DNA from: Pseudisothecium myosuroides
Lineage: Eukaryota; Streptophyta; Bryopsida; Hypnales; Lembophyllaceae
Direction of reading: 5' to 3'
Assembly (NCBI GenBank): GCA_951799445.1
Contig: OX637289.1
Location: 3,140,501-3,204,500, forward strand
Length of the DNA: 64,000 nt
Every line of letters begins with the position of its first letter. The first letter of the stretch is position 1. This document shows positions 6,450 to 64,000 of the stretch, piece by piece. The notes under the pieces are model-generated. The model was not told where the DNA came from and did no database searches. It saw only the letters and a program-made list of their open reading frames with translations. The translations under genes were made by a program, and so were the position numbers.

Positions 6450-6513
6450 GTTTCCAGCAACGGAGGACTGACTGTCCGCAATTGATCTGTGATTGTGTGC
6501 TCAGTTGATATCG

Positions 6514-18690: not shown

Positions 18691-20795
18691 ATGGCTTCGT
18701 CGTCCGAGAGCGGTCTCAGCCTCTGTTATGAAGAGACTCCGTGTTGCTTCAAAGTCTCTGTGTCGCAATGGCAATCCAAGGTGAGGTACCCTTCGTTCTC
18801 GCAAGCTGTCGAGACTCAGGATGGCGTAGCGATGCCGACGAAAGCTCAGTTCAGATGGAGTGAACGACAGTGTTCCGAAAGTAGTAGTAGAAGAAGAAGA
18901 AGAGGAGAGTTTGTTTTTGCGAGGGTCTCTGTTACCAAAAGTTTGGGCTCGTGGCAGGAAGGTGGTTTTGGTGAATTCGTGCGGGAAAGCAATCGGCGAG
19001 TCAATCAAGTGGTCAGGTCAGTTGCTCTCATTATAAGCAAATGATGATCAATATTGTTAAATGGAATTTAAGCTAAACTGCAAATTCATTCCTGAGTATG
19101 TGTGTAATTGGAGTTTATAGGAGTTGGAAATGGTGAGGCTCTCCAATATCTTGGACTAGTCAATTCAATAAATGAAGACAAGAAGAATCGTATCCTCTTA
19201 GAAATGACTACTGAGCAAAGTTTTGCGAATCGGCCACGTCTTTTGGAGGTTGCCTGATGGCAACTGTCACCTTATAGTATTAAATAAGCCTCCTTTTAAT
19301 TTTTATCTTCTTTTTTGTGAAGCCAAGGAGTTGCAGCGACTGGGCTATTGATATGTTCTTCTCTACTCTGTCGCTACGGATAGGTTTCTAGGACTTATTA
19401 AAATTGGTGCACATACGCGATGAAACTGCATTAGTTTGTAGACTCTTGTCAACGATTCGATGGCATGCCCCGGAAGTATCCATTAAGATCCGGTGTAATT
19501 TGGCTCTCTGTGACAGTTTGGATTGGTCTTTTCCCAGGTGCATGACCGTGGTAGGAAGTAGTGCCGGAAGGATGGTTAAATTGCCATTGCTTGAAAGAGC
19601 CGGTATCAGTGCATTGGCTGGTGGCATTGCTGGAGGCTTCACAAATGCAACCCTGCATCCGATCGATACCGTGAAGACTAAATTGCAAACGAGAGGTGCC
19701 TCGAAATTGTACTCTGGTCCTCTGGATGTGGTTTCTAAGGTGAACAAGCAACTTTCTTGCATGCGTAATGCCACTGAAGTTATCATTCAAAGATTTGGAA
19801 TTAAGAGAGACTAAGGACTTATCACTGACTTAAATAGATACTGTTTTGAATGCAGGTTATTGCAAAGCAAGGAATAGCAGGTCTTTACAGTGGAGTTCAG
19901 GCGGCTTTTGTGGGGTCCATAATATCATCGTCTGTCTACTTTGGGACTTACGAACTAGGAAAGGGTGTCTTCACCTCAATAGGCAATTGCCCTAAAACTC
20001 TCGTTCCTCCCCTAGCAGCAGCTCTTGGAAACATTACTTCATCAGCAATCCTAGTTCCGAAGGAAGTTGTAAAACAACGAATGCAAGCTGGGATGGTTGG
20101 AACCGCACTGGAGGTCTTCTTACAAACTATTCGGTCCGAGGGCATTGGAGGTTTATATGCAGGATACTCCGCTGCTCTTTTGAGAAACTTGCCGTCAAAT
20201 ATCATCAGTTTCTCCACTTTTGTGAGTCCTTTTCTAGACATAACCCTTGGTCCTTTTTTTTAAGCATCCATGAATGTTGACTCAGGTCACACAGTGCATG
20301 AGCAGCTAGTCTCAATCTTGGTACTCACACAATGCATGTCATGATCCTCAGGAGTACTTGAAACTTGCTTGGTTGAGAGATGGTGAAAAGGCAACACTAG
20401 AACCGTGGCAAAGCGTGATATCAGGTGCAGCAGCTGGAGCATTGTCCGCTTCTATAACGACGCCCTTGGATGTGGTCAAGACTCGGTTGATGACACAGGC
20501 TCGTAAGACAGTCTCCAGTTCTGGCATGTCTGGAGTACGTGCAGAAGCAGCTGCTCGAGCTCAAGCTATAGCTGCGTACACGTATACAGGTGTTGCTTCT
20601 ACTTTGAATCAAATATGGCTAGAAGAGGGAGTACTTGGGCTGACGAAGGGAATGGGACCTCGGTTATTTTACAGTGCATGTTTTTCAGCACTTGGTTTCT
20701 TTGCATTTGAGACCACAAGGGTTATCATACTTAAGAAATACTTGGAGAATACAGCTGCTGCTGACAAAGTTGATGCTAGAATTCTACGAGTTTGA
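18691..20795 (+). CDS. MFL1-like: Mitoferrin-like mitochondrial-carrier-family protein, probably plastid
   Basis: Exons 18691-19016, 19538-19739, 19856-20221 and 20352-20795 join in consistent phase to give 445 aa. The first 110 residues are Ser- and Arg-rich, basic and non-conserved, like an organellar transit peptide. Three carrier repeats follow, with signature motifs PIDTVK (about 150), PKEVVK (about 244) and PLDVVK (about 336), and QGIAGLYSG/EGIGGLYAG-type glycine motifs after them. Details such as SSSVYFGTYELGK, KGMGPRLFYSACFSALG and the closing FFAFETTRVIILKKYLE match the plant mitoferrin-like 1 group, which is linked to iron movement across the chloroplast envelope. Substrate is inferred from family only. 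S-adenosylmethionine carriers are the main alternative. An intact reading frame and clean GT-AG introns suggest a working gene. Confidence 0.88.
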
Positions 20796-21735
20796 TGCAC
20801 ATTAGCATCCGCACTTGAGTTTTTCGTTCGTCTCTTAGCAGATTGTAAAGTCCGGGGATTAAGCGTTGTACAATGGTGGGCACGCTCAGCAACCTGAACG
20901 TCCTCCAAATTTTGATGGTCTCCTTGGATTTGTAGAAGCAACTATTCTTTGGAGAAAACAGTTTTCTTGCTATGAGCTTTGCATTCTTCCTGAGGGAAAT
21001 TTTTGTTATTGGATGTGAATTACTCATCAAACAACTGCGCAAGTTTCTCTTTTATATTTAATCATTGCAGATTGCTGTTTTTGTGGTGCCTTGGAAGATT
21101 TCTATCGGTGTGAAGAGTCCTCAATAATGTATGAAGCATTCATCATCTCGAGGGCAAGTGCTTGTGGTACGGAGTTGCAGTCAAATGACGTCTGCGTCTT
21201 TTCTTTTAACACTTTGTAAACCATCTGTTCGGGGAGAAGCTTCTCTATGGAGTTCCCTGACATTAGTAGAGTCTTCAGGAGTCCAACTGTAGATTATACC
21301 CTGTTGAGTATATTGAGTATTTGCTTTCAAATTCTTCTCTATTCTCCTTCTTCTAGAATTCTCTTGTAGTCCATCGTGTACTATGAGCTGTCGTATGTTT
21401 TTCTGACCTTAAGCAGTTACGTCAGTGTGAATATTGTTTTGAAGCCTACCTTTGGAGCTCAAAGTTAGTCGGGAGTGGCGAACTTGTGCTCTTTGTGTGG
21501 AGAACCATTCATTCTTTAGTCTTTACTAGTGTGTCCTGTGCTGTTGCCACAGTGAAAACAAAAGTAAAAGTAACTTTCTAGTTTTTTAAATTAAAAAATA
21601 ACTCAAAAATCCATAATTTTCACACCATAGGTTGGAATGCCATGAAACAAAGCCTGTGCACCCCTCCTTGTCAAGGGCTTTCTGACCATACCAAGCGTGC
21701 CACCAGGGATGCATGGTCTTGGAGATCTCAACAAA
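20796..21735. other. 3' flank of mitoferrin-like gene, then repeat
   Basis: The first 700 bases probably contain the 3' UTR; no other gene is seen. From about 21640 the sequence is the reverse-orientation copy of the repeat at 16187-16310. Confidence 0.45.
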
Positions 21736-21739
21736 ACAA

Positions 21740-22185
21740 ACAAACTTAAGGTAAGGTAGGAGGCTCAGAAATGGAGCATCTAAGGGTTGGTCCCCCTTTT
21801 TCATATATTTCCTTGGATGGGAATATTTTTAGCTCATTTTTCAGACATAGAGAAATTGATGAGGAATCTAACCCAAGTGGTTTCATATTTTTCCAAGCAT
21901 TTTTGAATTACTTATGAATTTTCAAATGAGTTGGGTCATAGGTCCCTATTTGTGACCCTAGGTCTTTCATAAACGGTTCATTTGCAATTCTAAATAAAAA
22001 TAGGGAAAGCAAAGAGAATGATTGGCTCTTGCAATTGATAATTCTTTTTTCCTTGATTCATTCAATGAGTATACTAGTCAATTTCAGAACCCAACTCATG
22101 TCCATTTCAGAGCCATTTATAGGGTCCATTCTTAAGTTAATGCCTGCTCTGTTTTACAGCCTCCTACCTCATGGATGTGAGGCAC
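21740..22185. repeat. Dispersed repeat, also at 47.9-49.3 kb
   Basis: This stretch matches, in reverse orientation, the DNA on both sides of the TTAA element at 47964-48907 (about 47930-47963 and 48908-49290). Here the site is uninterrupted and reads CTTAAGTTAATGCC. It therefore serves as an empty-site reference for that insertion. Shared strings include GGCTCTTGCAATTGATAA-like and CACTTGGGTTAGATTCC-type sequence. Confidence 0.7.
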
Positions 22186-35965: not shown

Positions 35966-36640
35966 AAGATAAGATTTGATACAAATGAAGAACTTTAGTT
36001 TGTGAAAAAGTGCCACATTTCATCTTGTGGTTGGTGTAGGATGACACAGACCTTCCAAATACGACATGGAAATTCAGTTTGCTTGTGCAAACTGATCCTC
36101 ACGAACAGTAGCAGTATCCCGAACTTGCGAGCTGGTTAGGTTGCAAGCAATTCAGTTCCACTGGAGGGGGAAGCAGGCTCACCCTTTCGGAATTTTGAGA
36201 ACCCCGTCAAGCAATCATTCCGTCCGCGACGATCGATGTGCATGGCGTCTATTTCACAATTCAATATTCATCAGAAGCTGCTTGAGAACCAAGTTACAGC
36301 GACGGAGGTAGAATCACGCACAGATTCAGGACTTTTCTGTCTCGCCGCTGTCGTCCCTCTCAGTGTAGTCTCAGCCTGGCGGATGGGCTTGCAATTGCAA
36401 GGCAACCACCCATGTGCAATTCCAGTCATGGCGACGGTTGGATTCGTTACCTTGACGTGAGGCCCAGAGTGACCTCGTTTTCCGGATCACCGAATAGGGA
36501 TCAGCAAGGTTTCTAGTCGCAGCAGTTGCACGCAAATCGATGTAACTTACAAAAGGTCGTTGGAAATCGGAATCTGATCTGAATTGGTAGTCGATTCAGT
36601 GCCAACCACACCACACGAAACTGAAGCTGTAACGAAAGAG
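35966..36640. other. GC-richer shoulder of the AVT6-like island
   Basis: Composition rises toward the downstream gene. A 74-codon frame at 36236-36460 has a hydrophobic middle but no family resemblance and is not claimed as a gene. The DNA is probably distal promoter of the transporter gene. Confidence 0.35.
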
Positions 36641-36649
36641 TGGGGTCAC

Positions 36650-36655
36650 CACGTG
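36650..36655 (+). promoter_or_regulatory. G-box (CACGTG) in ABRE-like context
   Basis: TCACCACGTGTCGTC contains a G-box in a context (CCACGTGTC) that plant bZIP proteins of the ABA-response class bind. It lies about 1.1 kb upstream of the proposed TATA box of the AVT6-like gene. Confidence 0.4.
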
Positions 36656-36803
36656 TCGTCTTTGAAATACTGAAGCTATATTTGGTCTTTCCCAATCCTG
36701 GTCGTGAGTGGTCAGTGAGGTCGTCTGTTACAGTTCGTTACAATTTGGTTTCTTCAGTTGGTTTGCGATGCAAATGTAAACAAGCACCGTAGGTAGGTAG
36801 GAT

Positions 36804-37110
36804 GACTGTGACTGGTCCACGTCACCCTAGCTAGTCCAATCGAAAGATGACATGAGTCTCTGTAGACAAACATTCGGTCGGAAGTGCCATGTCAGATTGA
36901 ATTTCCATGTCAGATTACGACTGTGACTGGTCCACGTCACCCTAATTCAATCAAAAGATGACACGAGTCCCTGCAGACAAAAGTTCTAAATATTCTACAG
37001 TAAACATTCGGTAGAAAGTGCCATGTCAGATTGAATTTCAGTTTATGGCAGATTGTGACTAGTCCACGTCACCCCAGCCCAATCAAAAGATGACATGAGT
37101 CCCTACAGAA
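36804..37110 (+). promoter_or_regulatory. Triple promoter module with CCACGTCA cores
   Basis: Three tandem units start at 36804, 36919 and 37051. Each holds GACTGGTCCACGTCACCCT or a close variant followed by CAATC-AAAGATGACATGAGTCC. The ACGT cores are at 36817-36824, 36932-36939 and 37064-37071. Between them GTGCCATGTCAGATTGAATTT also repeats. Repeated ACGT-core sites suggest bZIP-controlled, possibly ABA- or stress-responsive expression of the transporter gene. The regulatory role is inferred. Confidence 0.5.
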
Positions 37111-37722
37111 ATTACATAATTTACCGCCGAATCTGACCCTCCCGTACGGTAAGCGAAATGAATAGGCCTGCTGGGTCCTTTCCGCTAACTGCGCCGGATG
37201 CTCGGTGAATTTCCATCCAGTTCCAAGCAGTCTGAATTTCGGATGAGTCCAAACCGTCCAAACTTGACGGAAGCATATGCTGGGCCCCATTTCCAGAACG
37301 ATAGGCAATTGCGATGTCTGTTGCCAACCTCCAGTTCTCACGGCCTGTGTTTTTCTCTTGTTATTACATACTCCGTATTACTGTGCAGTCGTCACCTTCA
37401 TGGTTACATTCATCAAATGGCGTGTGTCAAACTCTGCTATATAAATGAAGGTCATCTTCGCTTGTTATCAGTTCCATTCATCATTCATGACTCAGTCGTG
37501 GTTGGTAACTTACGGCCTTTGCACTCTTATTTCCATCTCAAAGCATTGAATTTCGTTGACTGAATGCATTGTAAACCCCACTTGCAGTCTCTCCTGTTTT
37601 ACTTTGTCTTTATATTCGAGGAAGCGTGCTGGGACGATAAGTTACATTGTGCATGTGCGTTCGTAAGTTGGACGGTTGGAAGGGATTCCGATTCACCCGG
37701 TTTGCTGGCCGGCCGGTCGGTT

Positions 37723-37729
37723 TATATAA
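37723..37729 (+). promoter_or_regulatory. TATA box of AVT6-like gene
   Basis: TATATAA within GGTTTATATAAGCAGAG lies 562 bases before the ATG at 38291, implying a leader of about 530 bases. A second TATATAAA near 37439 is an alternative. The leader contains an ATG-TAG start-stop pair at 37926-37931 and a good GTACGT donor at 37950, so a leader intron is possible. Confidence 0.5.
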
Positions 37730-38290
37730 GCAGAGATTCTGCACCATTCTCACACATCGCGCAAAAATTATCATATACGAGTTCGCGTTTCCAGGTTTAG
37801 AGTTTGTTTTGGGTACATTTGGTTGAGACGCCGCATTCGTGCCTGTCCGACGCTTGAGTGGGTATTCTTGGGACACAAATTGTCACGATTGTCTGCCTGG
37901 AGCGTGCGTGTATAAATTAGGACATATGTAGGATTTTTGCTCCTTGCAAGGTACGTCTTGAGTTGAGAGCGCTTCACGGAACCGAGCTAGCTCTCGCCAT
38001 TGTCGTCTCCAGCACTCTTCCTGTGGCCCACCTTCGTTGCGCAGGAAATTGTTCGTTCGCAAGTGCACACCACGCGTCGTTTCTTTCGTCAAAATCGTCG
38101 CCTCAACTAGGTGGTGAATCCCAGTATCGAGATTGTTACAACAGAGGATCCTTCGGGTTGTGCCTGCGTTGTGGAATTGGCCATACCGGCAAAGATTTTG
38201 GCTCATTTGGGCGGATCGAAGCAAGGGGAAAACCGTTGCGTGTGCTTTTGCTGTTGTGAGAGCAACGATCCAATTTGGAAGTGGGTAACG

Positions 38291-40729
38291 ATGGCAGACG
38301 ACTCGCCGAGGAAAACGTACGTGGGCATGGCGCAGACAGAGAGGACGCCGTTGCTGCCAAGCAAGAGGCAGGATCTGCTGGTGGAGGAGGATGTGTACGA
38401 CGACTACCACGAGGCGTCGGTGTCGAGCGGGGTGTTCAACCTGTCCACCACCGTCGTGGGCGCCGGGATCATGGCGCTGCCGGCCACCATGAAGGTGCTG
38501 GGCCTGCCGCTCGGGATCGTGAGCATTATCGTCATGGGGATTTTGAGCGAGAATTCGATTCAAATCATGCTGCGCTACTCAAGCCCGTCCGGTGCTCGCT
38601 CTTACGGCGGCTTGATGGGCGACGCGTTCGGCGCACTTGGCCGTGCCCTCGTGCAGCTCTGTATCATCATTAACAACTTCGGCATCCTCATCGTTTACTT
38701 GATCATTATCGGTACATACTGGCACCCCTGCATAGCAAGCTCATTTTCTTACCATGGTATTGAGGAACTAACATAGATGATACCATTTGCGTCACTTTGA
38801 ACATATTCCCAAGTGTGATTTTTGTGGTGAGATCTTTGGGTACAACAACCAAATCTGTTAAGATCAATCCTTTTATCACTAATTCACTACGTATGAACTC
38901 CTTGCAATCATTCAAATTGAGAGGTTATACTGTAGACCTCTTATAGTTGACAATCGCGTTTCCCTTCAAAAATCAGGTGTCATAGACTAATACAGCCAAG
39001 CTCCGCTTACACTCAACTTGCTAATGAAGGCCAACCACGTTTATGAAAAGATGAGTTGCGTTTGATAGCACGGGATGAGATCCCTAACGATTTAGTGTCC
39101 TCTACTTCAGGTGTTGTTGTTTGCTGGCCTGTGAATGCTAGGGTTTGTGTATCTGAGGAGAAATTGGAACTGATGGTTTTGGATTTGATTTTGCTGGTGC
39201 AGGTGATGTGTTGTCAGGAACTTCAGGAACTGGAGAGCATTACACTGGAGTACTTGAAGAGTGGGCTGGCGGTGCAACATGGTGGAACGAGCGCACCTTT
39301 GTTCTCTTCACCATCATGGTTGTAGTGCTGCTGCCACTCGTCTCGTTGCGACATGTCGGTACGTAATTTATCACCACCTCTCATCTTTGCATTTTCCTTG
39401 AATTACTTGATCTCCGAGGGTTTTGGAAAGGCTCATGTGATGTCACCGAGGTTGAATGTTGCGGCGGTGATTCCTGCAGACTCTTTGAAGTGGACATCCG
39501 CATTGTCGGTGGCACTGGCGGTGGTGTTTGTGGTGATCGTCGCTGGGGTGACAATGTGGAAATTGGTGGCTGGCGACATTCCTTGGCCAAGGCTCACTCC
39601 CGACGTTCATGACCAAAAGTCTTTCTGGCGTCTCTTCACCGTCATTCCCGTCATCATGACTGCTTACATTTGCCACCACAATGGTAAAACAATATCTTAC
39701 ACTCTCTCCACTCCACTTCCTCTCGTACATCCTTTTGCTCTACCTGTTGTATGTAGATCTTTTGAAATGTGTGCAGGTTAATACGAAATCTTGAATCTTG
39801 TGCTGATTTGCTAAAACTGATTACTGCAGTACATCCAATTGCAAATGAGTTGGCTGGAACGGCGGATGCTTCCGACGAGAAGATGCAACAGGTAGTGCGC
39901 TGGTCGATGTTCCTGTGCGGCGGCATCTACCTCTGCACAGCCACGTTCGGGTACCTGTTGTTTGGGGATGCAACAGGGGATGACATCTTGTCCAACTTTG
40001 ACACTGATCTGGGAGTGCCATTCTCCCATGCTCTTTGCGTCATCATCCGGATCAGCTATGCCGTGCACGTCATGTTGGTCTTCCCGCTGCTCAATTTCTC
40101 CCTTCGTCTCAACCTGGACGGCATTCTCTTTCCCAGAGCCTCCCCTCTCGCCCACGACAGCTTCCGCTTCGCCCTCATCACCGGCTTCCTCGTCTGCAGC
40201 GTCTTCTTCGGCTCGACTGTGGTGCCCAACATTTGGATCGTGTTCCAGTTCACCGGTGCCACCGCCACTGTTTGCTTGGGGTTCATCTTTCCTGCTCTCG
40301 TCTTGCTCAAGTAAGTTGCTCTCTCTCGTTTCAGATTCTTTTTTGTCGATTAGCAAGATTTGATGAGCTTTTCGTTGGATATTTTTAGCTTGGCGCTGTA
40401 GAATCAGTTCGCCTTACCCTAACCATTGACCATAGTGACAGACTAGCGTGCTCTCTGTGAATCTCAATTTAGTTGAGTATTCCGTGTGTGCTATCAATAT
40501 ACCTGAAGTCCTGTTTTCTCACTTTTGCGGACCACTTTTGTCTTCCAGGGACAAGCCCTTGTTGGCAACCAAGAGAGACAAGCAAGAGGCCGTGGTGATG
40601 GTGATCTTGGCGATTCTCTCTAGCGTGGTTGCTGTTTCAACGAACCTGTTTAATCTTCTGGAACCAGCAGTCCACCCCGGAGGTGTTCCTGCAGGTCTTA
40701 GCACAGGCTACTTCCTCAAGTCATTGTAA
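38291..40729 (+). CDS. AVT6-like: AVT6-type amino-acid transporter, five exons
   Basis: Exons 38291-38711, 39203-39358, 39480-39683, 39830-40310 and 40549-40729 join in phase for 480 aa. A hydrophilic N-terminus (about 45 aa, acidic, with TPLLP) precedes about eleven hydrophobic segments. The first begins SGVFNLSTTVVGAGIMALP, the hallmark of the AAAP/SLC38-like group. Later signatures include IVYLIIIGDVLSG, AYICHHNVHPIANEL, RISYAVHVMLVFPLLNF and PNIWIVFQFTGATATVCLGF. These match plant AVT6 proteins, which export amino acids from the vacuole; the subcellular site and substrates are inferred from the family. The last exon ends in a further hydrophobic helix and a short Gly/Pro-rich tail. All splice sites are GT-AG. 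No defects are seen, so the gene is probably active. Confidence 0.9.
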
Positions 40730-43431
40730 AATACACATTAGATTCTTAAGGATTACTTGATTATTCGGATTTGATCTGCCCACTCAGCAGGGAATGTACA
40801 TTACTTGTTAGGCTGTGCAGTAGCGACATTGTCAACGGGAGGTTGATAAATATCACTCACACAGATTTGTCACCCGAATTTGAGCCTTTCAAATTCAAGT
40901 TAGGCTTTCCCAAATTGAGCCACTCACTCAGGTATTGTATTTTTTCACCAACAGGTCAGCTCAAAGCTGCATACTAGGTATTACACTTGTACATTGGATT
41001 CAACACATGATTAATCAAATCACTGTCCTTCCTACTTGGAAATTCGGAGACACTCGACGTTTTCATACCATCTGTTCCCTTGCTCACTGGCTTTGTTCTA
41101 CAGTTGTAGATAGGGGACAATTCTGCTTATAAGGATCCAAAGCCAGCAATATATATATCGCAGACGTGGGTAATTTTTGCATCAACAATCGTCCCTTGCA
41201 TACACGGAGTCAAATTTGTTGGCTCTGGACTGAAGGAGAGGAAGTTTTGCATTGCCAGTGCCCTAGGGCACATAGCCTCTTGCAGTGCAGTTGCTTGTTG
41301 AAAGAGATACTGAGGAAAGTCTACTTGTGCACCCATGAGGCATCTAGGTCAACAATTTCGTGCTCATAGCCTTCTCTTGTCACTCTCGTTGTCACATGGG
41401 GAAGTGTGATCTGAAAAATAGAGGGTGGCTAAGAGTCCTAGCTTCATCTACCACTCAACCTTTGAGTACCAATGGCTCTCTCAAACTCCATCCTTGTCCA
41501 CTTTGAATATGAGGGTAGGGTGCTGAAAGATATGATGGACTTGATTTGTTAGGAGGAGAAGATTATGTTCAAAAATCAACTTGCTTCTATGCAACTTGTT
41601 TGGTTTTTTAGCACGTAAAACTTTTCAAGAAGACTAGGCCATTACTATCTTCTTTGCAAGAAAAAGATCTAGTGATGTTTGCCACCTAAATCTTCCATGT
41701 TTCTCATCAATATCATGTCATCTTGGAATATGCAAGCGTGCATTTGGAAAGATTCCAAGAATTTTTTTTTATCAAAAGAAAAATTCTTACCAAGTGAATA
41801 ATTTGAGTGCAAGTGCTTTAATATTCAATGGAGACACCATTCTTATTAAATTGCTTCCTTTAGATTTCTCTCATATTTTAACAAGTCTATTTTCATTTTA
41901 ATTGATCAATCTATAATGATTTTATGTGATTGGTAGGCATAGGGTTGAGTCCTTAGTCAATATGAATTCTAGTCCTACCTAAATTATCAATGTGTATGCA
42001 AAAGAAGGTTTCAAAGTGGATGCAACCCTTGTTTTGAGACTCACACTTTGATTGCAAAATATCCACTATCTTGGCCCACCTTATTGTTCAATTATAGCGG
42101 GAAGCCAAATATATTGTTTTTTCTAAGAAATTCAACAAGATTTTAAACTAAAAGCTAGCACAAAATAGTAGCAGCTTGTAATCAAGATATTTCTTAAAGA
42201 GAGGGTTTATAAGATGAGTGTTTAGATTATATATTTTTGAATAATTCCTTTTTAAAAAATGCATTACAATTTAGACTTGGACTTGGAAGCACACACATAT
42301 TCAAATTATAATGCACAATTGTCCCTAGGGACTTCTGCATGGAGCTATAGCTAGGAGTGCAATAGTAAATAAGGTATGCAGGCCCCAAATCACCTCTTGC
42401 CCAATTGCAACTCCTACTTTGGGGGCCCAATTGCACCTTATTGCTTTCTAATGTTGCAAAATTATAAAGAGTTGGCATTATGACTCCAAATCACCTCTTG
42501 CCCAATTACACCTTGTTGCTTTCTAATGTTGCAATCCTTTCATAAAAGATTAAAATGTTAAGAAATTTCAAGCAACATTTCCTACACTTTGACTCCATAT
42601 TAATGTTTCAAACAATTGGATGTAAAAGTAATCAAATAATGTAAAGGCTTGAGGTAAAAAAATTCATAGACATGTTTTTTGCCTATTTATTTGCGATTTT
42701 AATCACATTATTTTTCTAGCTATAATTCTTTTAAATTAAAAAAATTAAAGCTTTTTTATTTTTGTTTGTGCACAATGTGCTCTAAAAATACAATCTTAGT
42801 TCTAAAGTCATTAGAGTGCTTGAAGCATGAAAACATCTACTAGGATATGCACTATTGGCTTTACTTCAACAAGTTTGTTTCAAAAGATTAGTGCAAGTAT
42901 TAGGGCAAGTATTTGTTACAATTCTATTTTTCTAAAAGTGAACATATATTTTAATTTTACTTTGTTCTTTTGATACCACACTATTTTTTTGGAAAACAAA
43001 ACACTATTACTTATTGAAATATAATATTTTAAAAATAGATATCAACATTAGAAATTAGAAGTGCTTTTGGTGATATTAAGGTGTGTTTAACTTGGTACAC
43101 ATTTAAGGCTGTGTAGCCTAACTAGCTAGGTAGATGAAAAATAGCTTATAGAGTTCATAAATTGCATCTTACATAATTCTCCTTTAATTAGGATTATAAT
43201 AGTATAATAAGGCCAAATGACTAGGATTTTTTTTGCTATATAGAAATCTAACCCTCGCTATGGCTTCATATGGAAGCTAGGCTTATATTAAATCACAAGT
43301 GCACTATTAAACAAGGTATTTGGCAAGATCTGAGTTTTTGAGTGCCTGGATACAATATCATATTACAACAAAAAGTCCTCCCAAGTCACCCAAATAGATC
43401 TTCCGTGTGCAACGCAGTGAAACTAATTTAG
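40730..43431. other. Spacer downstream of AVT6-like gene
   Basis: The 3' UTR presumably occupies the first few hundred bases. A roughly 55-bp segment containing CAAATCACCTCTTGCCCAAT and TTGCTTTCTAATGTTGCAA is duplicated (about 42386-42460 and 42485-42535). Otherwise the DNA is AT-rich with no recognisable gene. Confidence 0.45.
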
Positions 43432-51867: not shown

Positions 51868-54800
51868 AGCATTTTTAACCCTCGAAGGTCTATGCATACA
51901 AAAAAGAGGATGTGCCTTTCAAAATAAAAAGTAACTTTCAAAATAACCATTCTTGATATTTGATTTTTTTTTAAAAATGAAACTTAAAATGTTTTATTTC
52001 TATTTCATTTGAAAAAATCCAAAAATTAAAAGAATTATTGCAATTACAAGGTTTATGTGTCAAAATCCAAATTACATAATTTTATATTTTTTTCATTTGT
52101 ATTTTTGTATTATTTTAATGGTTTTAAAATTCAAATTAAAAAATCATGTTTCTCATTCCAACTTTCATTTATAATAAAAAAATTCAAATTATTATAATAT
52201 ATTTTAAAATTGTTATAATTTCTTTTTTATTATTTACTTTAAAATCAATAATTTTTTTTTTTAAATCAGCGTTAATAGAAGTGATTAATTTCTTACAAGT
52301 GGAAATTATAAAGATCTTATATATCAATTATTCAAAAGGATAAGTTTAGATTGATAGTGGCATTTAACATCAAATTTATTCTCAAATTTATTAGTAAGGG
52401 TGTTTTGGATGTTAAATGTAAAATAATGAATTGATAAATCTTTACACCAATCTCCATTCTTACTTGCAATTCTTGAAAAAAATTCAAATTAATTGGATTT
52501 TGTTGCTATATTTACTAATTTATTTTCACTTTTCAATACAAAAATTATAACAATTATAAATTTTTATGAAATGAATTGAATTTATTTATAGTAGACAATC
52601 CATAACATTTTACTTACTACAAAATGTATAAGATGGATATTTGAACACAATTCAAAGTCTAAATTTAGCTCAAATATGATGTTTGACAATTTTGCAATGG
52701 ATTCAGTCTTTTGGAAGTTAAGCTCTAATTAAATTATTCATTTTACATTTGTAGTGCTTGAAGTTTATTTTCATTTTGAGCACTATATATTTGAGCACTT
52801 TGATCATTTTGGGGTTGGGTTCTAGTCAAATTAATATTTTTTACAATTATTAGATACATGAAGTAGTTTAATTTGAGTATTTGACATAGTGTATTAATTT
52901 TTGGCACTTTTGGCTTGTTGGCTTCTACCCCAATTGAATCATCACCCACCCACCCACCTCCATCCTTGAAATGTGTATTTTATCTTATGGATTACTTTTC
53001 ATTTGACTTATGCATGTAACAACTTTATACCATAGGATACTTTAATCTTATATATACAAGAGCTTCTAATGATAATTATTTTTTACATATGTATAAGATG
53101 GTGGTTCTTTTGGTCATCGTGAAAAAATATTCAAAGAGCAAAGCAATATGCCAAGTGTATTTTTTGGATTCTCCTACTTTAAATATAATAAAATTTTAGA
53201 CCTCCTTACGTTCTATAAGGCTAAAGTTTCACAAATATATCTAAATTCTAAAGAACCATTGATTTATGAAGATTTGTAAAATCTTAAATCTAGATTTTAT
53301 TTTGCTATAAATGCAGCTACATATGTCCCACTGTTGTAAGACAATCGAAGTGTTCAACTAATCCAAATTCCTTAATAAGACTTCATCATAAACACAAAAT
53401 GGAACACATGGTTCACAACATTTATTTTCAAAATGCATAAGAGGGGCTAGTCATCTAAATTAATATCAAAAAATGGGCCTTCCAAGGCAATTGTTGAGAG
53501 GTTTCCAAGAGTTTTTTCCTGCTCCAAAAATTTGCGAAGACCTGAAAATGGGGGAGAATAATTAATCACATAATTCTCGTTAGCATCTATTAGCCTAGGA
53601 ATAATTTAGTATGTTGTTGACCAAAGAGATTTGGATAGCCAAGAAGCTCAAGAAGATTACCATGCAATATAGTTTTGGCTCATCAAAGGATTGACTTGCT
53701 TTGAACACAACATCAGATGATAATTTATTACCTAATTTCCCTCTACCAAATATGATGCTATAAATTCTTCATGATTGGTCAAATTGGCAATATGCTACCA
53801 ATAAAGATGAAAATGTAATGAAATACATGGATCTCACATTCTATTGTTGTCCAACTTTGATGATCGGTGTTGCTTTGTGAGCTCTCCTCTCGAAGCAAGT
53901 CAAAAAATTGATTACAATTCAAAGTCTTCCTCTGCACCCAAATAATTAGTTACAAAGAATGATTATATAGATAATTGCTATCTTCAATCGAACAAAAAAC
54001 CTCAATAAACAAGTGCTACTCGATAATTCAGTAGACCATACATAGTATAGATATGTGAAATTAAGATTTAAGAGCAAATTTAAAGGTGACATTAGATTGA
54101 ACGAGAAATCATGATTCAATATATATACCAATTGCTTGTCTTCTTCATAATCCTCTCATTTGAATGTTAGCTCAATTTGTATATGCATGATTGGATCAAC
54201 CTCCAATTTAAGGAGTGCTCGGTCTTGGCATCTGTTGCTTTAAATGACAAAATTAGATTCAACCACTTGATATTTCTTGCACATGACACTTATATAAGTC
54301 TACACATTTCTAGTTGAAATTGAATTGAAGACTAGATTAGTTAGAAATTGAGGGTAGCAATTAGATATAATGTTGTACACAATATTAACATACCTAGATG
54401 CCAATCGTTCCGTCAAGTGAGAGCTTGTGAACCCAACATGAAGATTATTAATTATATTATCAAAGATTGATGAACATAGCAAGTGCTTTGTTCTTATTAG
54501 GAATGGTGGTCAAGATGATGGAGGAATCAGGGTTGCTAGCAGGCGAGCCTGTGAGCGTGAGCTTGTGAGCGGGAAACTTTTTTTGAAGAAACATTAGATG
54601 AGGGACCTATGACCGTGGGTTTAGGGTGTCATAAAATTGAAGAGATATGATGTCATTTTCTTCAACCTCAAGGCTTTTCTAAAAAATTATTTTAATTATT
54701 ATTTGCAACCACCAAATTTTGTCAATTTTGAATATAATCACTTCAAGGGTGCAATCCTAAAAAAAATAAAGATATACATTTAGGGTGGGTAATTATTAAT

Positions 54801-56739
54801 TAATAGGGGGTATCATTTTTTGATGATCATTTATTTTGCAGTCTATCAATATATATAATTTTCTAATTTGGCTCATTAAAAAAGGGACAGACATTAATTT
54901 CAATTCCCAATTACTATAAATATATCACATGCTATATTATTTTAATTTTTTGCACTACTTACAACTACAGAATTTGGTGTAGTGTTTACTGATTAAGATT
55001 AATGGGCTCCTTAACCCTTTAGCGCTCCAACATGTACAAATTCATATCTAAATCTACAAAGCTCTAAAAAATATGAAAGAACGTCGGTTACATTCCAATC
55101 CAATTTTGCTTTGAAGAATAGACTTTTCGACAATATTTTAAGAAGTCTAAAAAATATATCAAGTACAATAAAAACACCAACAATACCTAACACTTCTAGG
55201 TAGCCTGAGTAAGTGGAAGCCATCTTTGACAAAAATGCCTGATCCAAGCCTATTTTCTAGAAAACAATAATGCCTGTGGAAACAACAAACAAAGGCTACA
55301 AATGCAAATCCTAGCTAAACCAAGAAGATTCAAGGAGTTATACAATTTCAAGGCTTTGTCATGAAGCCGCAAAAGAACATTCACAGCTCTATGTTTAGAT
55401 AAAAATTTAAGCCCAATTTGTGAGGAAATCAATATGTAAAGTAACAAGTACAAAGAATGTATGTAGTTCATGCACCTAGGCTAGTTCAGCATACCATTGT
55501 TGGGTCAACTTCATATGAGAATTAGGTTAATTACACACAAACCGAGGAAAATACCTCACAGGGCCGTCCTGAAATGTAATGTCTGCATCAAGAATTCCTA
55601 TTAATTAATATGTTATGGGATTATGAATATAAGCCTCATCAAAATATAAGTAGAGACCAATCAAAATGTTCAATAAGATATCAATAAGATAGTTCACCAC
55701 TATGTAGTTGTTATTTAATAGGGTTTATATTCAATTGTGCTAAATAAAAGCCTAGGCTAACTATACAAAATAGTGAAATAAGGGTGCTTCCACAATTAGG
55801 TTGCCTTACATCATGAAAGTTACCTTACAAGCCATTAATGTAAACAAATATTTCAAAAACAAATTCCATTTGTACACATGGAGGTTCATGAGTCCCAATT
55901 ACAACAATATCTAATTCAAAAGTAGTGTATTCTTGTACAATAACTAAATATATATTTATTCGTGTCAAATGGCGAGAAATTAGTGTGGGGCAACCTAATT
56001 TCACTATTTTGTGTTCAACAAAAACTTCATGTGATTGGTAAATACAACATCAATTAAGCTCTGTTTAATTAAAATTCTGCGCTAAATAAAACATAGAATG
56101 CATGAGATCGGGGTTTCAAGCTTGGGTGTTTACGTACTGCGCTCTACTACCATGGCTCATTCACAAAGGTCTAATTTTGGAGGGACCATCCTTTATTCCT
56201 TGCATAGCGACTACTACAGTACAAAACAAAAAAGCTGCATGTGATAAATTAATGATGTTTTTCAAATTCTTAGATTAAGAGTGGTACATAAGTTAGATCA
56301 TAAAAGTTTCATGAATTTAGAATAAGAGTAATATATAGTGTAAATGTCGGATTCAATGCCAGACCTTCATCCACAATTAGGACATCTCTCCCATTCAATT
56401 CATAAACAATCAAAAATCTTAAATTTTCTTTTTCACTACTACATTCCATTTTTATGTTTCCGTTTGTGTTTAGGATATATCTAAGGACATTTTACATACC
56501 TCATATTATACTAATTGAAATCATTATTTTCAACCCCAATTTTTTGGGGGGCCCTTCACATGTGTTCATTTTTATATTACTACTTTTATCACTTATTGCA
56601 TACCCCAAAGAAATAACGCATTGCTCAAATGGAAAAAAAAGCACTACGCCCACGATTTAGCCATAAAACACACAAATCCAATCATAATCATAACCAACAC
56701 ACAATACAGTAACTCACGAGATATGTCAATCTTGTGAGT
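51868..56739. other. Extremely AT-rich gene-free region
   Basis: No gene is recognised over almost 5 kb. Short open frames are AT-driven. A single TTAA-CCCTTTAGCGCTCC end lies at 55011 with no partner found. The last few hundred bases may include the 3' UTR of the ParB/methyltransferase gene. Confidence 0.5.
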
Positions 56740-59700
56740 CTAAGTCGCAGTAGACTCGGTCGTTGAATCGTTCGTAGTAGACGACTCAGAAGTCTCCCTA
56801 CCCTCAGACGCTGACCTATCTATAAAATTTAAAACATTCAAAGCATAGTTATTTTTTTTGCGCTTCGGTTTCTGACAGCCAAAATCTGCAAACGCCGAAG
56901 CCAACTGTTGGGCATACACTGGAAGATCAAAAGTCTTCTCCGGGCTGAATAGAAGACTTCTACTCTTCATCATCGCATCTGCTACCATCACTCTTGTGCG
57001 ACTGCAAATGTAAATATTACAATGTTAGACTTTTGAAGCATGCATATTACCATGCCAAGAAATGAGGGAACAAATTGAAACTTACTTACTAGGTTTAGTT
57101 TTCCGAATAAACTTCTTGGGCACCACCGGTGCCGACTCGGGATCTTGTGATTCAACAATTGCCGGCGTTGGTTGTGTTGTCACTACAACTGGAACCTCCT
57201 TCTTCAAGGGTTCTAGGAGGGCATCAAAAATGTCTTTGTTTTCCTCCAAAGCCACAATGTGACGGCCTAAGCCACGACAAGCGAGAATCGATGCACCTGA
57301 AATTCACAAATTCAAAAGCTTCAGTTCAATGACTCATTTTGCAAAACCTCATTCAAATTTTCAATAATAAAATGAAAGACTAACCTGTAGATGCGCTACA
57401 ATCGAATACCAAATCTCCTTCAACGGTGGTGCCTTCAATGAGCCTTTGCAAGAAGCGAGGGTCCTTCTCACGACCCGCCCGCCATGGTTTATTACCATTC
57501 ATCGCCATGTTCTCATCGAAAGTGTAATTGTTGATCATGTCATTCCAAACGAGATCAACATTAGCCTTCTTCATCGCCATTGATCGTTTGAAACAAAATT
57601 TTGATTTTGCCTCGTCGCCAAGATTCTTTACAAGAATACTCACGCCAAACTTCATCGTCTGCAATCATTGCAATCAAACATACGTCAGAAACTACAATAC
57701 CAAGATGCATCACCAAGTTAAACTTCAATTTCAACATGCAACATTAAACTTACCGTGCAACCCGACTCAATAGCGGATGTCAACGGCAGACGGTTGACGC
57801 CACACAACTCCTTGAACTTCACCATCGGATATGTCTCACACAATCCTGCTATATTACTCTTGGAATCTACACACCAAGAGTGAAAAACAATCATGCATCT
57901 GTTGTCTTGTAAATGCCTCTCGGCAAAAGCAAAAGCCGACTGAAGAGCCTCGTTCTCTTCGTCCGCGTTCCACGTAGGCACCTCATTCTTACTTAAAGAC
58001 ACTCCCGGCACGGGCAAATTATCTGGACAATCGAAAATCACAAGGTCCACTCCCAGAAACCGGTTCAATACACCTCCGTACATACGAGGCTTTTCTGTCG
58101 ACAGCTGCAAAGATAAATTACAGCAAACAATTAATCATTCATCCAATTTTTTTTCATTTCATTAACTTCATTCATGAAAGGCTAAACAAAATAAAAAAAC
58201 TTACCTTCCCCAAGAACTCCAACACCTCTATCAAGCAATTCGGTGGATCGGAGTCCATGTTTTCTACGACATCCTCAATGGAAAGATTCAGAATCAAATC
58301 CTCCATGTTGAATGCGTCATCATCACCCAAAACAATCACCTGCGTCTCATGAGTGATGACTTCTTCAGTCAGCTGTGCAAGTGCCTTCCTCTTCATCCCA
58401 CTTTGAGATCCCACTTGCATCTGGGATCCTTGGTCCACCGTCGAAGAAGCTGGAACTGGACCACCTCCATCGACTTTTTTCTTCCCTTTCGACTTAGCCT
58501 TCTCTTCCTTCTCCTTTTCTTTCTACTTCTCCTTCTCCGCCAACTTCTCCTGCCGCTCCACTTCCTTTTTCTCCTTCGTGATCACCAGGTTCACAAGCCG
58601 GGCTTCTTTCTTCTTATCATTGACCTCCCTCTTCGCAATCGCCCTTCTTCTTTGCTTGTCAGTCAATGCTGCGAACTCATCAACCACATAATCAATAACA
58701 CCTTTGCCTTCCAAAGATTGCCACAATTGTAGCTCCGACGGATGAACGAAAGTTCCGTTGCAATATAAGTACCAACCCCCACCACTCAGATGAGCTGTCG
58801 TGAAGATACGCATCTGAGCTGGAGTGTACATGCCAACACCTGAACTGCGGTCCAACCTCGTGCTCAAAAACGGAGGAAGGTCATTCCTGGCAATTGCGCC
58901 TTTGGCTTCAAGCTTTAGCTTGAAGTACCTGCAATACAAAAACAAACCAATCATTACAAAACATTTGAAAAATGAAAATTGAAATCCTAAAACTATTTCT
59001 ATAGAAATGTATATGGTAAAATAAGCCATGAGATCAAACAACAATGGAAAATAATGTTTCTCATAATCCACAAAAATACTCTCGGCAAACTATCAAAATA
59101 TTCAATAAAGCCACCAAACAAAATTGGGATTTTTTTCGGAGAACCCAAAACGGGAGTACCTTCAGGTACTTCTAAAACAACCCTCGGATCCGCAGGTGGT
59201 TTTAGAGGTACCTCAAGGTACTCCCATTTTAGGTTCTCGGGAAAAAAAAAAAAAAAAAAAAAAAAAAATTCCAACATTTTGTAGACGAAACAAGCATGTC
59301 CTCACAATCTTAAGAAATACAAAATTACAAAGAAATACACTATTCATTTTCGTTGACATACCGATATAACACCCTTTGAACGACAAGATTTGTCCCTTCC
59401 AATGTCATGAAGTTGTCCCCTTTTTTGAATGGGCTGTTGCCTTTCAAATACGGTCCGAAAGCTTGCTTCCAAAGCTTCCTCCGCCATCCCTCCAAGTACT
59501 CTACTAAAAACTCTGGTTGCTCTGGGACCCCGTAGTTTATTGGAATGTTGTCTTGTTTGACAACATCATCAAAATACTCCACAGCAGCATCTTCAATCTG
59601 TTAAAGCAACACACAAATTAGCCCCTACAATTTATGAAATAGAATTCTAGTGTTTGAATTGAAAAAATTGAAAAAATTGAAAAAATTATAGCACACAGTC

Positions 59701-61965
59701 ACTCACCCCGGCGTAAAAAACACATTTGTTCAAGAACGGCCCAAGATGACCCTCGGAAACGGGCCTTGGCGGAAACTTCCGAGCTTCACGAGATGGAAAC
59801 GATGAGTTCCACCACTGTAAGAATTTCACCTTGTGAAAAGATGTAGTGGCACATGTCGCCACCATCTGTAGTTTTTCCAGTGTCATCTCTGGAGACTCAT
59901 TTGCGGTCCAATGCTTCTCCACCTGTAAAAAAAACCAATATTTGTTTATACCAATGATGACATGCAAATCGAAATGAAAACATGTCATCAATCCATTGAA
60001 AATTGAACTGACCTCTTGGAGAAACCCAGCCCCATTAGTTGGCTGGGCAGCTGACAAGAGTTTACCCATCTTCGTGATTAATGTTCGATTCTTTTCTTTT
60101 GCTGCGACCCGCATGGCATGAGCTACGCCCTCCGGAGTCTTCAGTTCAAATTCGGTTGTCTCGTTGTATTTTCTCACCCCCGCGTCCGCCGCCTATGCAA
60201 TCTCTTGCTATAAACCACGAGCACCTTGTAAATGAAATAATACATGCAAATTTAAATAGTAGATTATAAAGCAATATAATGAGAACAGAGAAGGCGACCA
60301 CATGAAATGCTTACCCGAAAGAAAAATGAAGTAAATACTTCCTGAGGCATAGAGTACCACTTTTTACTTGGTTTACCAACACATATCTTGACTTCTGAGG
60401 GCCTTAGCATCTCCTTGAACTTCTCGAAGGGAAGTTGACCGTACTTCTGAACCCGGTACAAATCATGTACCAAGTTTGTCTTGACGTGAGAGTCCTCCGT
60501 TGCCCTGCATGTCAAAACAAATGTGGATCATTCCTCTCAAACAAAATACGCCACATGAAGTTTAAAATTACTACAAAATACTTTGAAATGCAAACAAAAA
60601 TGAGAATTGCATACTTACTTGTTTATGTCATGCATGACTTGCAATACTAACTCCTTCTTTCCCTTAGTGTCCAAGACAATGCAGTCCACCAGACAGTGAA
60701 AATCCAGGTTTGTATACTCGACCCTCGTGATATACCTCATCCACGCTTGAAGTCGATGAATTCCGTCGCAAACAAAGAACTTCAAGTTCTTCAAGAATCG
60801 CAATGCTGGCTCGGACTCAATGTAATCGTTGAATTCATCGTTCTTCTCATTCCATATCGAATTCCAGCAATTCATTTCATCGGTAGTGAACTCAGATGTC
60901 TCCCCGGCCTCATTGGTGGTTGACACGTAAAAATTGCTGCTCCCTCGCGATATCCAAACACGAATTCGGTGTCCAGTTTCTTGATGTCGCATAACAATGT
61001 CGGCCGGACCATTGGCATCGCTACAAGCCTGCAAAGAGGAATCTGAAGCTGAAACATCTTTGCTGGCTTCATTCTCAGCAAATTGATCGTGGCGACGGAA
61101 TTGACCTTCTGAAGTCGTCGGAGCTCGTCCTCCAATAATTCCTTCTCCTCGTCCTCCTCCACGTCTGCTTCCATGAATGGGGCCGCTTCATCACCTACAA
61201 TATCTGGTTGAGCTTCTTCACCTGTTTCTGGAGTTTCCAGTACTCTTTCCTCCTGAGTTTGATTTACAGGCGATAAATCCATCTACAAGACAATACAAAA
61301 CAATATGTGTTATAAACTAATTTACAAACCTTCAATACAGAACGAGTTCATAAATTAATGGTATTGAGAAGCTCACAATAGCAATATACACCGAATAGAA
61401 ATTACTGAAATAAATACATGAAAAATAAGCCAACTAAAGTCATGGCCATCACATACATATATCCATATAATATTTTCAGTAAACTAGAAAAGTCTGTCTA
61501 CGATTACTCTATGTCTACCGATTCATCTGAGTCAGAGCTCAGATGAATGATGACAATGTCGTGCCTCGGTGTACTAGTACTACATGCACAATCACAGTAC
61601 TCTTCTTGCAAAGGGCTACAAACGGATTCTGATACACTTAGCTCAGAACTATACTTAGTCTCCGAGCTTTCTGGTGAAAAAACAGGCTGCCTTCCCTTCC
61701 AATTTCGCTGCCAACTAAAATGATTCCCACGTGGCCGTTTCTTTGAGTCCGTAGGAAGATCTATAGGATCTACAATTGCCCCTGTGCTTACCAAGTCATC
61801 CTCTTGACCTTCCTCAGCCTCAGTATCGCTGGAGACATCCACATTTGTTGGAGCAGGAGTGGCAGGCTCTGATTGCGCTCCACCTTGAAGAATTCGGACC
61901 ACTTCAACAGGAACAACGGGTCTTGCATCCTTGGAAGATGATGCATGACCAAGATGGGCATCCAT
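56740..61965 (-). CDS. ParB-like / beta-class DNA-methyltransferase-like fusion gene, 12 exons
   Basis: Proposed exons (high to low): 61965-61519, 61282-61106, 61028-60619, 60504-60315, 60192-60013, 59922-59707, 59597-59362, 58928-58205, 58104-57754, 57658-57385, 57296-57086 and 57001-56740. All junctions are GT-AG with matching phase, giving about 1,225 codons. Residues 1-208 are acidic and low-complexity. About 209-400 resemble a ParB-like domain, with FFVCDGIHRLQAWMRY (DGIHR at 296-300) followed by VMHDINKATEDSH. About 710-800 are Lys/Glu-rich. About 861-1110 resemble a beta-class amino methyltransferase: VDLVIFDCPDN (885-888 in the DPPY position), then LVFDCSASTGASILACRGLGR (motif I, about 1060-1080) and ALEENKDIFD. 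ParB-methyltransferase combinations are familiar from phages and bacteria. One in-frame TAG is codon 754, so the copy may be dead, read through or differently spliced. DNA N6A or N4C modification is inferred, and key residues deviate. Confidence 0.65.
58523..58525 (-). other. In-frame TAG in the ParB/methyltransferase gene
   Basis: This is the only stop within otherwise continuous exons. It lies in a Lys/Glu-rich stretch (AEKEK before, KEKEKEEKAKSKGKKK after). The frame before and after it is the same, so one base change separates the locus from an uninterrupted frame. The methyltransferase-like half lies downstream of it. Confidence 0.8.
59137..59240. repeat. Palindrome centred near CGGATCCG inside an intron
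   Basis: CGGAGAACCC...GGAGTACC...GGTAC on the left pairs with GTACC...GGTACTCCC...GGTTCTCGG on the right (about 50-bp arms, several mismatches). CTCGGATCCGCAGG lies near the centre. It sits in the intron between exons 59597-59362 and 58928-58205 and is followed by a long A tract. Confidence 0.7.
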
Positions 61966-62535
61966 TGCCTGGAAGTGCAAATTGAATGGACAAGTTAAAT
62001 TTACAACCTGTAATCTTCAATGTTGCATAAAATGAAAGCATGAATACAAATACACACAACAAGCAATTATGTAAGATGTCCTTTGAAATGAATTCTACAA
62101 ATGAAAATAAGGAAATTATAAGTGAACTGACTAGGATATGAATGGGTCGAGCCTCACCTTCGAAGTTATAACATTTGCAAAAGGGTACCAAAATGATAGA
62201 TACCAAATGGTACCCCCCATTTTGGTACTCTTTAATAAATACATTAATTTAGGAGCAGGATCGAAAACCATTCTAACTCATGAGCACACTCTAACGTCTA
62301 TAAAAAATTGTATTCCAATATAGGTTTCAGAACAAAATTTCAAAAATATTTAGAAATACAATATCAAATCAAAAAGCATTTGTAGTGATAGAATATTTCA
62401 TAGAACACCGACCAGGCATTTGACATGATGTGCTTCAAAACAGAGTTCTAGTAGTGATAATAGAGAAGTCCAAAAAAATAAAAAATGATAAGGACTCCCC
62501 AAGCCTAACCTTAACTTTACTGACTAGAAAACCCC
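61966..62535. repeat. Upstream region of ParB/methyltransferase gene; first array unit
   Basis: A TTCCAG acceptor-like site directly precedes the ATG at 61965, so a leader intron is likely. A weak palindrome AAAGGGTACCAAAATG / CATTTTGGTACTCTTT spans about 62172-62235, and GGTCGAGCCTCACCTT before it matches sequence ahead of the palindrome at 62959. This looks like the most diverged unit of the array. Confidence 0.45.
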
Positions 62536-62536
62536 A

Positions 62537-62652
62537 TCAATAAAGGGTACCCAAATCAAGGGTACCTCTTGGTACCCATAAAAGTGCCGTCGGATCCGAC
62601 GGCCCCTTTATGGGTACCAAGAGGTACCCTTGATTTGGGTACCCTTCATTGA
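62537..62652. repeat. Near-perfect GGTACC/GGATCC palindrome, array unit 2
   Basis: A 116-bp palindrome has arms of about 58 bp and only a few mismatches. Each arm contains AAGGGTACCCAAATCAAGGG and a GGTACC-type site, and the centre is GCCGTCGGATCCGACGGC. The flanks resemble those of the next unit. Confidence 0.85.
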
Positions 62653-62958
62653 CTATATGAACTTAAGGTCAATTCTTGATACCAATTTCACTCATTTTCA
62701 CTTTCTAATGGTTATAAGTAAGAAGGATTCCAACGAAGGTGTGAAAACATACATTCACAATTATTTTGATATACATTGTTAAATGAAGAATCCAAAAGAG
62801 TATGTACAGAAACAATATTTCATAAAAATCCAGACCAAGAGTTTGGTATGATGTCTTTCAAAAGTGAGTTCCAAAAGTGATAATAGAAGAATCAAAAAAA
62901 CATATATGATAACAAGGGGTCAAGCCTCACCTCTACTTTCATGACAGAATAAACATGC

Positions 62959-63072
62959 TAATGAAGTGTACCCAAATGAGGGGTACCTCCTGGTACCTAT
63001 AAAATGGCCGTCGGATCCGACGGAGCTTTTATAGGTACCAAGAGGTACCCCTCATTTGGGTACACTTCATTA
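62959..63072. repeat. Near-perfect GGTACC/GGATCC palindrome, array unit 3
   Basis: A 114-bp palindrome contains TAATGAAGTGTACCCAAATG, GGGGTACC and TGGTACCTATAAAA in the arms and the same CCGTCGGATCCGACGG centre. Its centre lies about 420 bp from that of unit 2, and the surrounding 300 bp align loosely between units. Confidence 0.85.
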
Positions 63073-63540
63073 GGTTTATAAATTTAGGATAATTTTTTGA
63101 TATTAAATCTAGCTACTTTTCACACTCTAACCTGTATCAAATAAAAGAATACCAACATAGATTTCGAAATACAAATTCACATTCATTTCAAAATCACAAA
63201 GTCAAGTAATGATTTCAACAATAAATGCATAGAAATGATATTGCAGAGAAGATTTCCAATAGAACTAGGATAATGGTTTCAAGAATAGGCACAACAAAAA
63301 GTATCGAAGTCCGCAACCTCCTATCTAAATAGAATTTGAAATGCATAATAAAATTCTCTTTAAAGAGAATTGTAATTTTAAAACTTCAAAACGTTGAACA
63401 CTTATTTCGTAGAGTGCAATTCTAGTTATCATCTGAGACTGAAACTAGAGTAAAATTATTTAATGCTTATAGTTCAAATATGATAGTTAAAAATTTAAGA
63501 TTATATGTAACTTGCAGCTTAAAAAAAAATTCACAAAGTA
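63073..63540. other. AT-rich spacer
   Basis: No gene is seen. The first 100 bases continue the array unit; the rest is unremarkable. Confidence 0.45.
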
Positions 63541-63548
63541 CTACCAAC

Positions 63549-63825
63549 CAGCCCTTTTTTTAAGCTTTTTGAGAAAGTGCCAGGATGGCGAACACTTAAA
63601 ACTTGGTGGAGCATTGCATTTCTACATTCATCCATCTTTTGGACCAAAAATCACTTTTCTATCAAATTCATACACTTTTTCATCCAAATTTGACAACTTC
63701 AACTACATTTTGTATATAAATGAAAAAAATCTGGCAAAAAAAGATTACTTTTATCTGGCAAAAAAAAGACATTTACTTTTGAAATGGTGAAATCTGGCCC
63801 CACGGTGCCACTAAAAAAAGGGCTG
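63549..63825. mobile_element. hAT-type non-autonomous element with 8-bp target duplication
   Basis: The ends are CAGCCCTTTTTTTA and the inverse TAAAAAAAGGGCTG. CTACCAAC is present on both sides (63541-63548 and 63826-63833), an exact 8-bp duplication. Short TIRs beginning CAG with 8-bp duplications are typical of hAT. The 277-bp interior contains a partial open frame but no transposase-like sequence. Confidence 0.82.
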
Positions 63826-63833
63826 CTACCAAC

Positions 63834-64000
63834 TGTAATTAATAATCCAGAATATAATTAAGAATATTTGTTAAAAACACTTGAACTAAATATAAGAATA
63901 ATTCAAATAGAACATAATTTATAACTGAATTTTAAGAAATAAGAAATAAAATAATTGAAATTCATAATTTAAAATAATATCAAAGTAAAACAAATAATAA
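63834..64000. other. AT-rich window end
   Basis: I see no feature in this final stretch. Confidence 0.5.

Follow-up and report, generated by a model that had tools for sequence, protein, structure and literature searches.

The window analysed here is a stretch of 64,000 nucleotides from Pseudisothecium myosuroides (contig OX637289.1, positions 3,140,501 to 3,204,500). At 56740–61965, its minus strand contains an intron-rich coding region for a protein with a putative ParB-like domain and a methyltransferase-like domain. Judged from the comparisons below, the gene at this locus has decayed and belongs to a large multicopy DNA transposon with two genes; the other gene encodes the transposase, and the gene in the window is here called the second gene. 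The original prediction, made from the window alone, joined the two domains through 12 exons and 11 introns. The intron-rich coding region itself stands, and GT-AG introns with consistent phases are confirmed across it, but the number of exons placed is 11, with 10 introns. The exons are as follows.

61792..61965, minus strand: exon 1 as modelled; the true start is uncertain
60619..61282, minus strand: exon 2, ParB/DGxHR-like domain with DGIHR at 60753–60767; frameshifted in the window copy
60315..60504, minus strand: exon 3
60013..60192, minus strand: exon 4
59707..59922, minus strand: exon 5
59362..59597, minus strand: exon 6
58205..58928, minus strand: exon 7, charged linker; in-frame TAG at 58523–58525 in the window copy
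57754..58104, minus strand: exon 8, motif-IV-like FDCPDN at 58018–58035
57385..57658, minus strand: exon 9, motif-I-like FDCSAST at its end
57086..57296, minus strand: exon 10, remainder of motif I (GAS...GRHIVALE)
56740..57001, minus strand: exon 11 and stop codon

The motifs named in the original prediction are also found: DGIHR and FDCPDN at the positions above, and FDCSASTGA and GRHIVALE spanning the junction of exons 9 and 10. The window copy is broken. It has a one-base frameshift in the ParB-like exon near 60929–60935, where many paralogues have a single open exon of ~212–231 amino acids, and its second lesion is the in-frame TAG in exon 7. In a projection of the window gene model to 13 further copies, 10 of them keep most of its splice sites, and the remaining three (L011, L013, and L022) are poor projections. 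All exons of copy L014 are open as projected, although the donor site obtained for its exon 2 differs from GT. The position of the window's ATG is not ATG in any of the six other copies translated, and the first exon and start codon of the second gene are uncertain.

In the 388-Mb genome, the ParB-like exon has at least 150 matches (150 of 392 candidates scored), spread over 11 large contigs and corresponding to at least 132 loci after merging. The methyltransferase-like exon is seen at no fewer than 146 loci after merging of 150 matches (150 of 303 candidates scored). Among the loci listed, 97 of the 132 ParB-like exons have a methyltransferase-like exon no more than 15 kb downstream, in the same orientation, while the other three arrangements of the two exons are seen in 0, 1, and 0 cases. 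Viewed from the methyltransferase-like exons, 97 of the 146 loci are paired with a ParB-like exon. This contrast indicates that the fusion of the two domains characterises the family as a whole rather than a single gene model, and the claim that both belong to one gene is borne out. The window copy is 98% identical to copy L010 over 9.5 kb. Several methyltransferase-like exons (G000:C6 437665, 469062, 29202967, and others; 37–38% identity, query positions ~16–114) have no listed ParB-like exon upstream; they are perhaps another subfamily or separate genes.

The transposon copy in question spans G000:C3:3195028–3220079, ~25 kb in total, and its right end lies in the window.

54518..54527: 10-bp target-site duplication flanking the right end; the matching copy at the left end, ATTCCTCCAT, lies outside the window
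54528..54548, plus strand: right terminal sequence CAGGGTTGCTAGCAGGCGAGC, a terminal inverted repeat, 16/21 identical to the left end CAACGACGCTAGCATGCGAGC
54528..64000, minus strand: in-window part of the transposon copy, which extends as far as G000:C3:3220079 and there includes the transposase gene and two nested insertions

Among copies of ~90% identity, the shared sequence is bounded by a sharp right end, ...GCTAGCAACCCTG, which is also found in the distant subfamily L023–L025. The 13-mer of the right end has 53 exact sites in the genome, compared with 2 in the control, and at 35 of the 53 sites a ParB-like exon lies within 25 kb in the correct orientation. The left end was located via a direct repeat in copy L012, which is 18,229 bp long; the 16 identities out of 21 are counted with both ends read inward. 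Target duplications flank all seven copies for which both ends are available, with a length of 10 bp in six and 9 bp in one, although only 6/6 count as independent tests because the repeat of L012 itself led to the left end. The trinucleotide CAA, which was outside the searched pattern, is present at 19 of the 19 left ends read. A Helitron-like element or one resembling a long interspersed nuclear element was considered while one end alone seemed to be shared, and was ruled out by the left end and the duplications. The original prediction had offered an uncharacterised mobile system as one option, and the ends, the duplications, and the linked genes strongly support it.

The left-end 18-mer, with up to three mismatches, is found at 582 genomic sites compared with 29 in the control, many of them with CGACGCTAGCATGTGAGC or CGAAGCTAGCATGCGAGC. 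These matches suggest hundreds of related elements, perhaps non-autonomous. Two sequences are nested in the left half of the window copy: a piece resembling a solo long terminal repeat (L033:4–1570) and a ~4.9-kb repeated insertion (L033:2538–7442). The long terminal repeat of the former's family is also seen upstream within the element of copy L015.

The core of the transposase gene is at C3:3215777–3217213, outside the window. The transposase gene and the second gene are divergent and are linked across subfamilies. The transposase contains a WRKY/GCM-like zinc finger and a C-terminal SWIM-like CxC...CxH, and WRKY-GCM1 zinc fingers occur in Mutator transposases. Its model has a predicted fold of the DDE type, closest to ISCth4, as in Mutator/IS256-type transposases; this model is the one used in the Foldseek and VIA-align comparisons. 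The 764-amino-acid transposase open reading frame has no match to the Pfam model for Mutator-like elements (MULE; PF10551) at E ≤ 1, and Transposase_mut reaches 0.034, in 2 of 57 members. No Pfam domain is listed for any of the 120 transposase homologues shown (120 of 310). The duplications of 9–10 bp, seen in 7/7 copies, are within the 8–11 bp of Mutator-type elements (PMC6446971). The transposon is predicted to belong to the Mutator superfamily. With the transposase as query, Foldseek on viral models gave one low E-value (3e-8), for the bracovirus protein O92526, which on this model comparison is perhaps a transposase carried there. A distant relative of the transposase, 43% identical in the core, is found downstream of copy L016 (L030:2198–5860); it is probably from another element of the group.

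The element contains palindromes of ~90 bp with the core TCGGATCCGA. Three of them are in the window.

59143..59233: ~90-bp palindrome in intron 6, 38/45 arm positions complementary
62549..62639: ~90-bp palindrome with the core CCGTCGGATCCGACGG, 43/45 complementary
62970..63060: ~90-bp palindrome with the core CCGTCGGATCCGACGG, 41/45 complementary

The sequence CCGTCGGATCCGACGG has 37 genomic sites and 0 in the control. Each of the 37 has a gene or an end of the family no more than 20 kb away (36 of 37 without the extra right ends), and the surroundings of the markers in the three main lists make up ~2% of the genome. In the window, the three palindromes are within 9.5 kb of element, whereas the remaining 54.5 kb has a single one, whose core is different. 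Palindromes with other cores are occasionally found outside the element, for example in the left flank of L012. Copy L012 itself contains six: one between two transposase frames, in a gap presumed to be an intron, four between the transposase and the second gene, upstream of the latter, and one in intron 6. Comparison of the intron-6 palindromes of the window copy with those of L024 and L025 reveals ungapped agreement at 60–61 of 90 positions, and the arm pairs retained are 38, 41, and 37 of 45 (window copy, L024, and L025). On this comparison, it is as if the symmetry were maintained despite the drift of the sequence. As RNA, the palindromes are computed to form long hairpins of −53 to −80 kcal/mol.

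A box of the DG[NQ]HR type is present in the ParB-like exon. DGNHR is invariant in 5/5 members of A3, and DGNH is nearly invariant in A2. At the third place of the box, among 13 copies, eight read DGNHR, four are altered elsewhere but keep N, and one is out of frame. The DGIHR box of the original prediction is therefore real, but its isoleucine is a private change of the window copy. The families DGQHR and DndB have been grouped with the ParB/Srx fold (PMC4619093). Matches to the same fold group are all under the cut-off: DUF1015 (0.0022), DndB (0.0071; NCBIfam 0.024), DGQHR (0.17), and a ParB phrog (0.18). These similarities are suggestive of a ParB-like assignment.

The methyltransferase-like domain was aligned from five subfamily members (A1). 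Pfam N6_N4_Mtase matches 5/5 members (best E 9.7e-7), as do four PHROG methyltransferase families, while the L014 member alone gives 0.002, under the cut-off. Profile matches of A1 in PDB include a DpnA-like enzyme (1.3e-5) and CcrM (1e-4). The CcrM alignment covers nearly the whole domain, and places the motif-IV stretch opposite ADPPYNL of CcrM. Motif IV precedes motif I, the order of the beta class, and motif I, with the S-adenosylmethionine (SAM)-binding region, fits well. The canonical motif IV of amino-methyltransferases is [DNS]PP[YFW]. Here it is D-[CVI]-[PQ]-[DEK] in 5/5 members of A1 and in 4/4 relatives from other sources, and the aromatic residue is seen in none of these nine sequences; in copy L009 it reads DCLD. 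Canonical catalysis is doubtful because of this motif. The methyltransferase homology proposed earlier can be retained on the Pfam and PDB matches, although not with a canonical motif IV. Its assignment as a beta-class amino-methyltransferase homologue is supported by these profile matches, and the domain is not classed as an active member; it may bind SAM or DNA without methyl transfer. A viral origin was rejected: no relative was found in viral contigs scanned with A3 and A1 or in prokaryotic genomes scanned with A1 alone, and tblastn of the methyltransferase-like stretch of L026 against phages gave weak matches to the motif-I part alone (best listed E 0.1).

The ratio of nonsynonymous to synonymous substitution rates (dN/dS) was obtained for 44 of the 45 pairs of 10 copies in the close subfamily, a set that excludes the window copy, distant subfamilies, and L011, L013, and L022. 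It is 0.13–0.41 in 42 pairs, and 0.66 and 0.93 in two close pairs. Exons 1, 7, and 11 were not used, and exons with stops or unequal length were excluded; dropping those with stops biases the ratio somewhat low. These values show, at the level of coding sequence, that the second gene is under purifying selection. The pattern fits selection in active lineages and decay after insertion.

Elsewhere in the window, 2001–10000, 16001–22000, and 36001–42000 have a raised G+C content (0.42–0.50, compared with ~0.32 in neighbouring stretches). These three blocks may be other mobile elements.

VANC, a protein encoded by VANDAL transposons of Arabidopsis, makes the element that encodes it lose DNA methylation (PMC5735166). 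The layout seen here resembles that of VANDAL, although with another protein: next to the Mutator-type transposase there is a second gene, and repeats specific to the element are found in introns and between the genes. Because of this resemblance, action on the palindromes against silencing is considered the most likely role of the second protein. It is considered somewhat probable that the gene in the window belongs, as the second of two genes, to a Mutator-type transposon, and that its ParB-like/methyltransferase-like protein binds the transposon's own palindromes and keeps the transposon's copies free from silencing by the host. The protein would recognise the palindromes, the ParB-like domain, as a nucleotide switch, would load or switch at them, and the outcome would be anti-silencing as for VANC rather than direct methylation. 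More tentatively, it can be speculated that this is a ParB-parS-like system of a transposon, in which a nucleotide-switched clamp with a methyltransferase-derived DNA-reading domain loads on the palindromes, spreads, and keeps the element open for transposition. Such a system would then be to a eukaryotic transposon, again tentatively, what ParB-methyltransferase fusions are to phages.

Several observations weigh against the anti-silencing reading. No ParB-like match passes its curated cut-off, and unrelated families score as high, namely KMP11 (0.0047, best for 6 of 22 members) and RecJ (0.0013). Structure-type searches divided the original prediction: the methyltransferase-like region matched methyltransferases in PDB profiles, but the ParB-like exon did not match ParB. 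The structure model of this exon is poor (predicted local distance difference test score 43) and unfit for structure search. The ParB/DGxHR fold remains a prediction for these reasons, and the earlier call stands for the box and is suggestive for the fold. No transposase neighbour is seen for 68 of the 132 ParB-like exons among the matches listed, and none of the 41 genomic Pfam MULE matches is within 30 kb of these transposases. Arm-to-arm conversion could also keep the palindromes symmetric. The distant loci L026–L028 have no long palindrome above the threshold, and so the palindromes may be confined to part of the family. Finally, neither domain of VANC is among the three Pfam matches (E ≤ 10) of the 1102-amino-acid conceptual protein of L014.

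The main rivals of anti-silencing are direct DNA methylation and help in transposition. The second protein could be an active methyltransferase that modifies N6 of adenine or N4 of cytosine and thereby marks the DNA of the element, with the ParB-like part targeting it. Its homology to DpnA-like enzymes and CcrM and the N6_N4_Mtase and PHROG matches in all five members of A1 agree with this, as does the frequency of such fusions in phages (PMC12704722), but a motif IV lacking the aromatic residue in all nine sequences makes it rather unlikely. Similarly doubtful is a role as a transposition helper, comparable to additional proteins known from some Mutator elements; the second protein would then bind the palindromes or the ends and contribute to excising or inserting the transposon. 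The second gene does travel with the transposase, and palindromes are found within and between both genes; they are internal, however, not at the ends.

Mutator-like elements often capture pieces of host genes (PMC6446971), and the second gene might be a passenger with no function for the transposon. This is improbable, since the gene is kept in divergent subfamilies, with linked ParB-like exons down to 38–39% identity, and a comparison of lineages in the close subfamily gives dN/dS values well below 1. Least credible is a host gene family domesticated from a prokaryote-type protein, the other option of the original prediction. An intron-rich, plant-like gene under purifying selection would suit it, but the terminal repeats, target duplications, divergent transposase, and dispersed copies, many of them broken, contradict it at the window locus, which is itself broken, mobile, and multicopy. 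Host-gene domestication is rejected on the ends, duplications, copy number, and broken frames.

A protein of prokaryotic type, ParB-like and methyltransferase-like, is here linked with a DNA transposon of a eukaryote and, on the anti-silencing reading, with a fixed cis sequence. Palindromes that are element-specific, and drift yet remain symmetric, are a direct target for studying how transposons resist silencing, and might yield a sequence-specific tool for the epigenome. The transposase family is noteworthy for the absence of a Pfam domain in the homologues shown.

Searches of open-licence PMC papers brought up none describing a transposon that bears a ParB-methyltransferase gene. Among known elements, MULE and IS256 share with the present transposon the duplications of 9–10 bp, terminal inverted repeats, a predicted DDE fold near ISCth4, a zinc finger, and a SWIM-like end. 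The present transposase differs in having no Pfam MULE match at E ≤ 1, and the terminal repeats are short and imperfect (16/21). Retrotransposons carrying DNA methyltransferases are reported from dinoflagellates and charophytes (PMC5890265). They are likewise transposable elements bearing a gene of the DNA-methyltransferase type, but they are retrotransposons with C5-cytosine enzymes, whereas this is a DNA transposon with an amino-methyltransferase-like domain.

ParB-like folds fused to N6_N4 methyltransferases are described as common in phages (PMC12704722); the original prediction had noted that such combinations are known from phages and bacteria. The fusions of ParB-CTPase and N6_N4 methyltransferase in phages and prophages likewise unite these two kinds of domain in a single protein associated with mobile DNA. 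In contrast, the present gene is in a eukaryotic DNA transposon and has 11 exons, a long middle region, and a non-canonical motif IV, and the scans of viral contigs (A3 and A1) and prokaryotic genomes (A1) found no relative of its protein. VANDAL elements, likewise of the Mutator type, combine a transposase with an additional gene that contains introns, and have repeats in introns and upstream regions that differ between subfamilies; the target motifs of VANC are repeats in introns and upstream regions (PMC5735166). VANC has DUF1985 and DUF287 (PMC5735166), and the present protein has neither among its Pfam matches. The targets of VANC are short motifs in tandem repeats, whereas the putative targets here are palindromes of ~90 bp.

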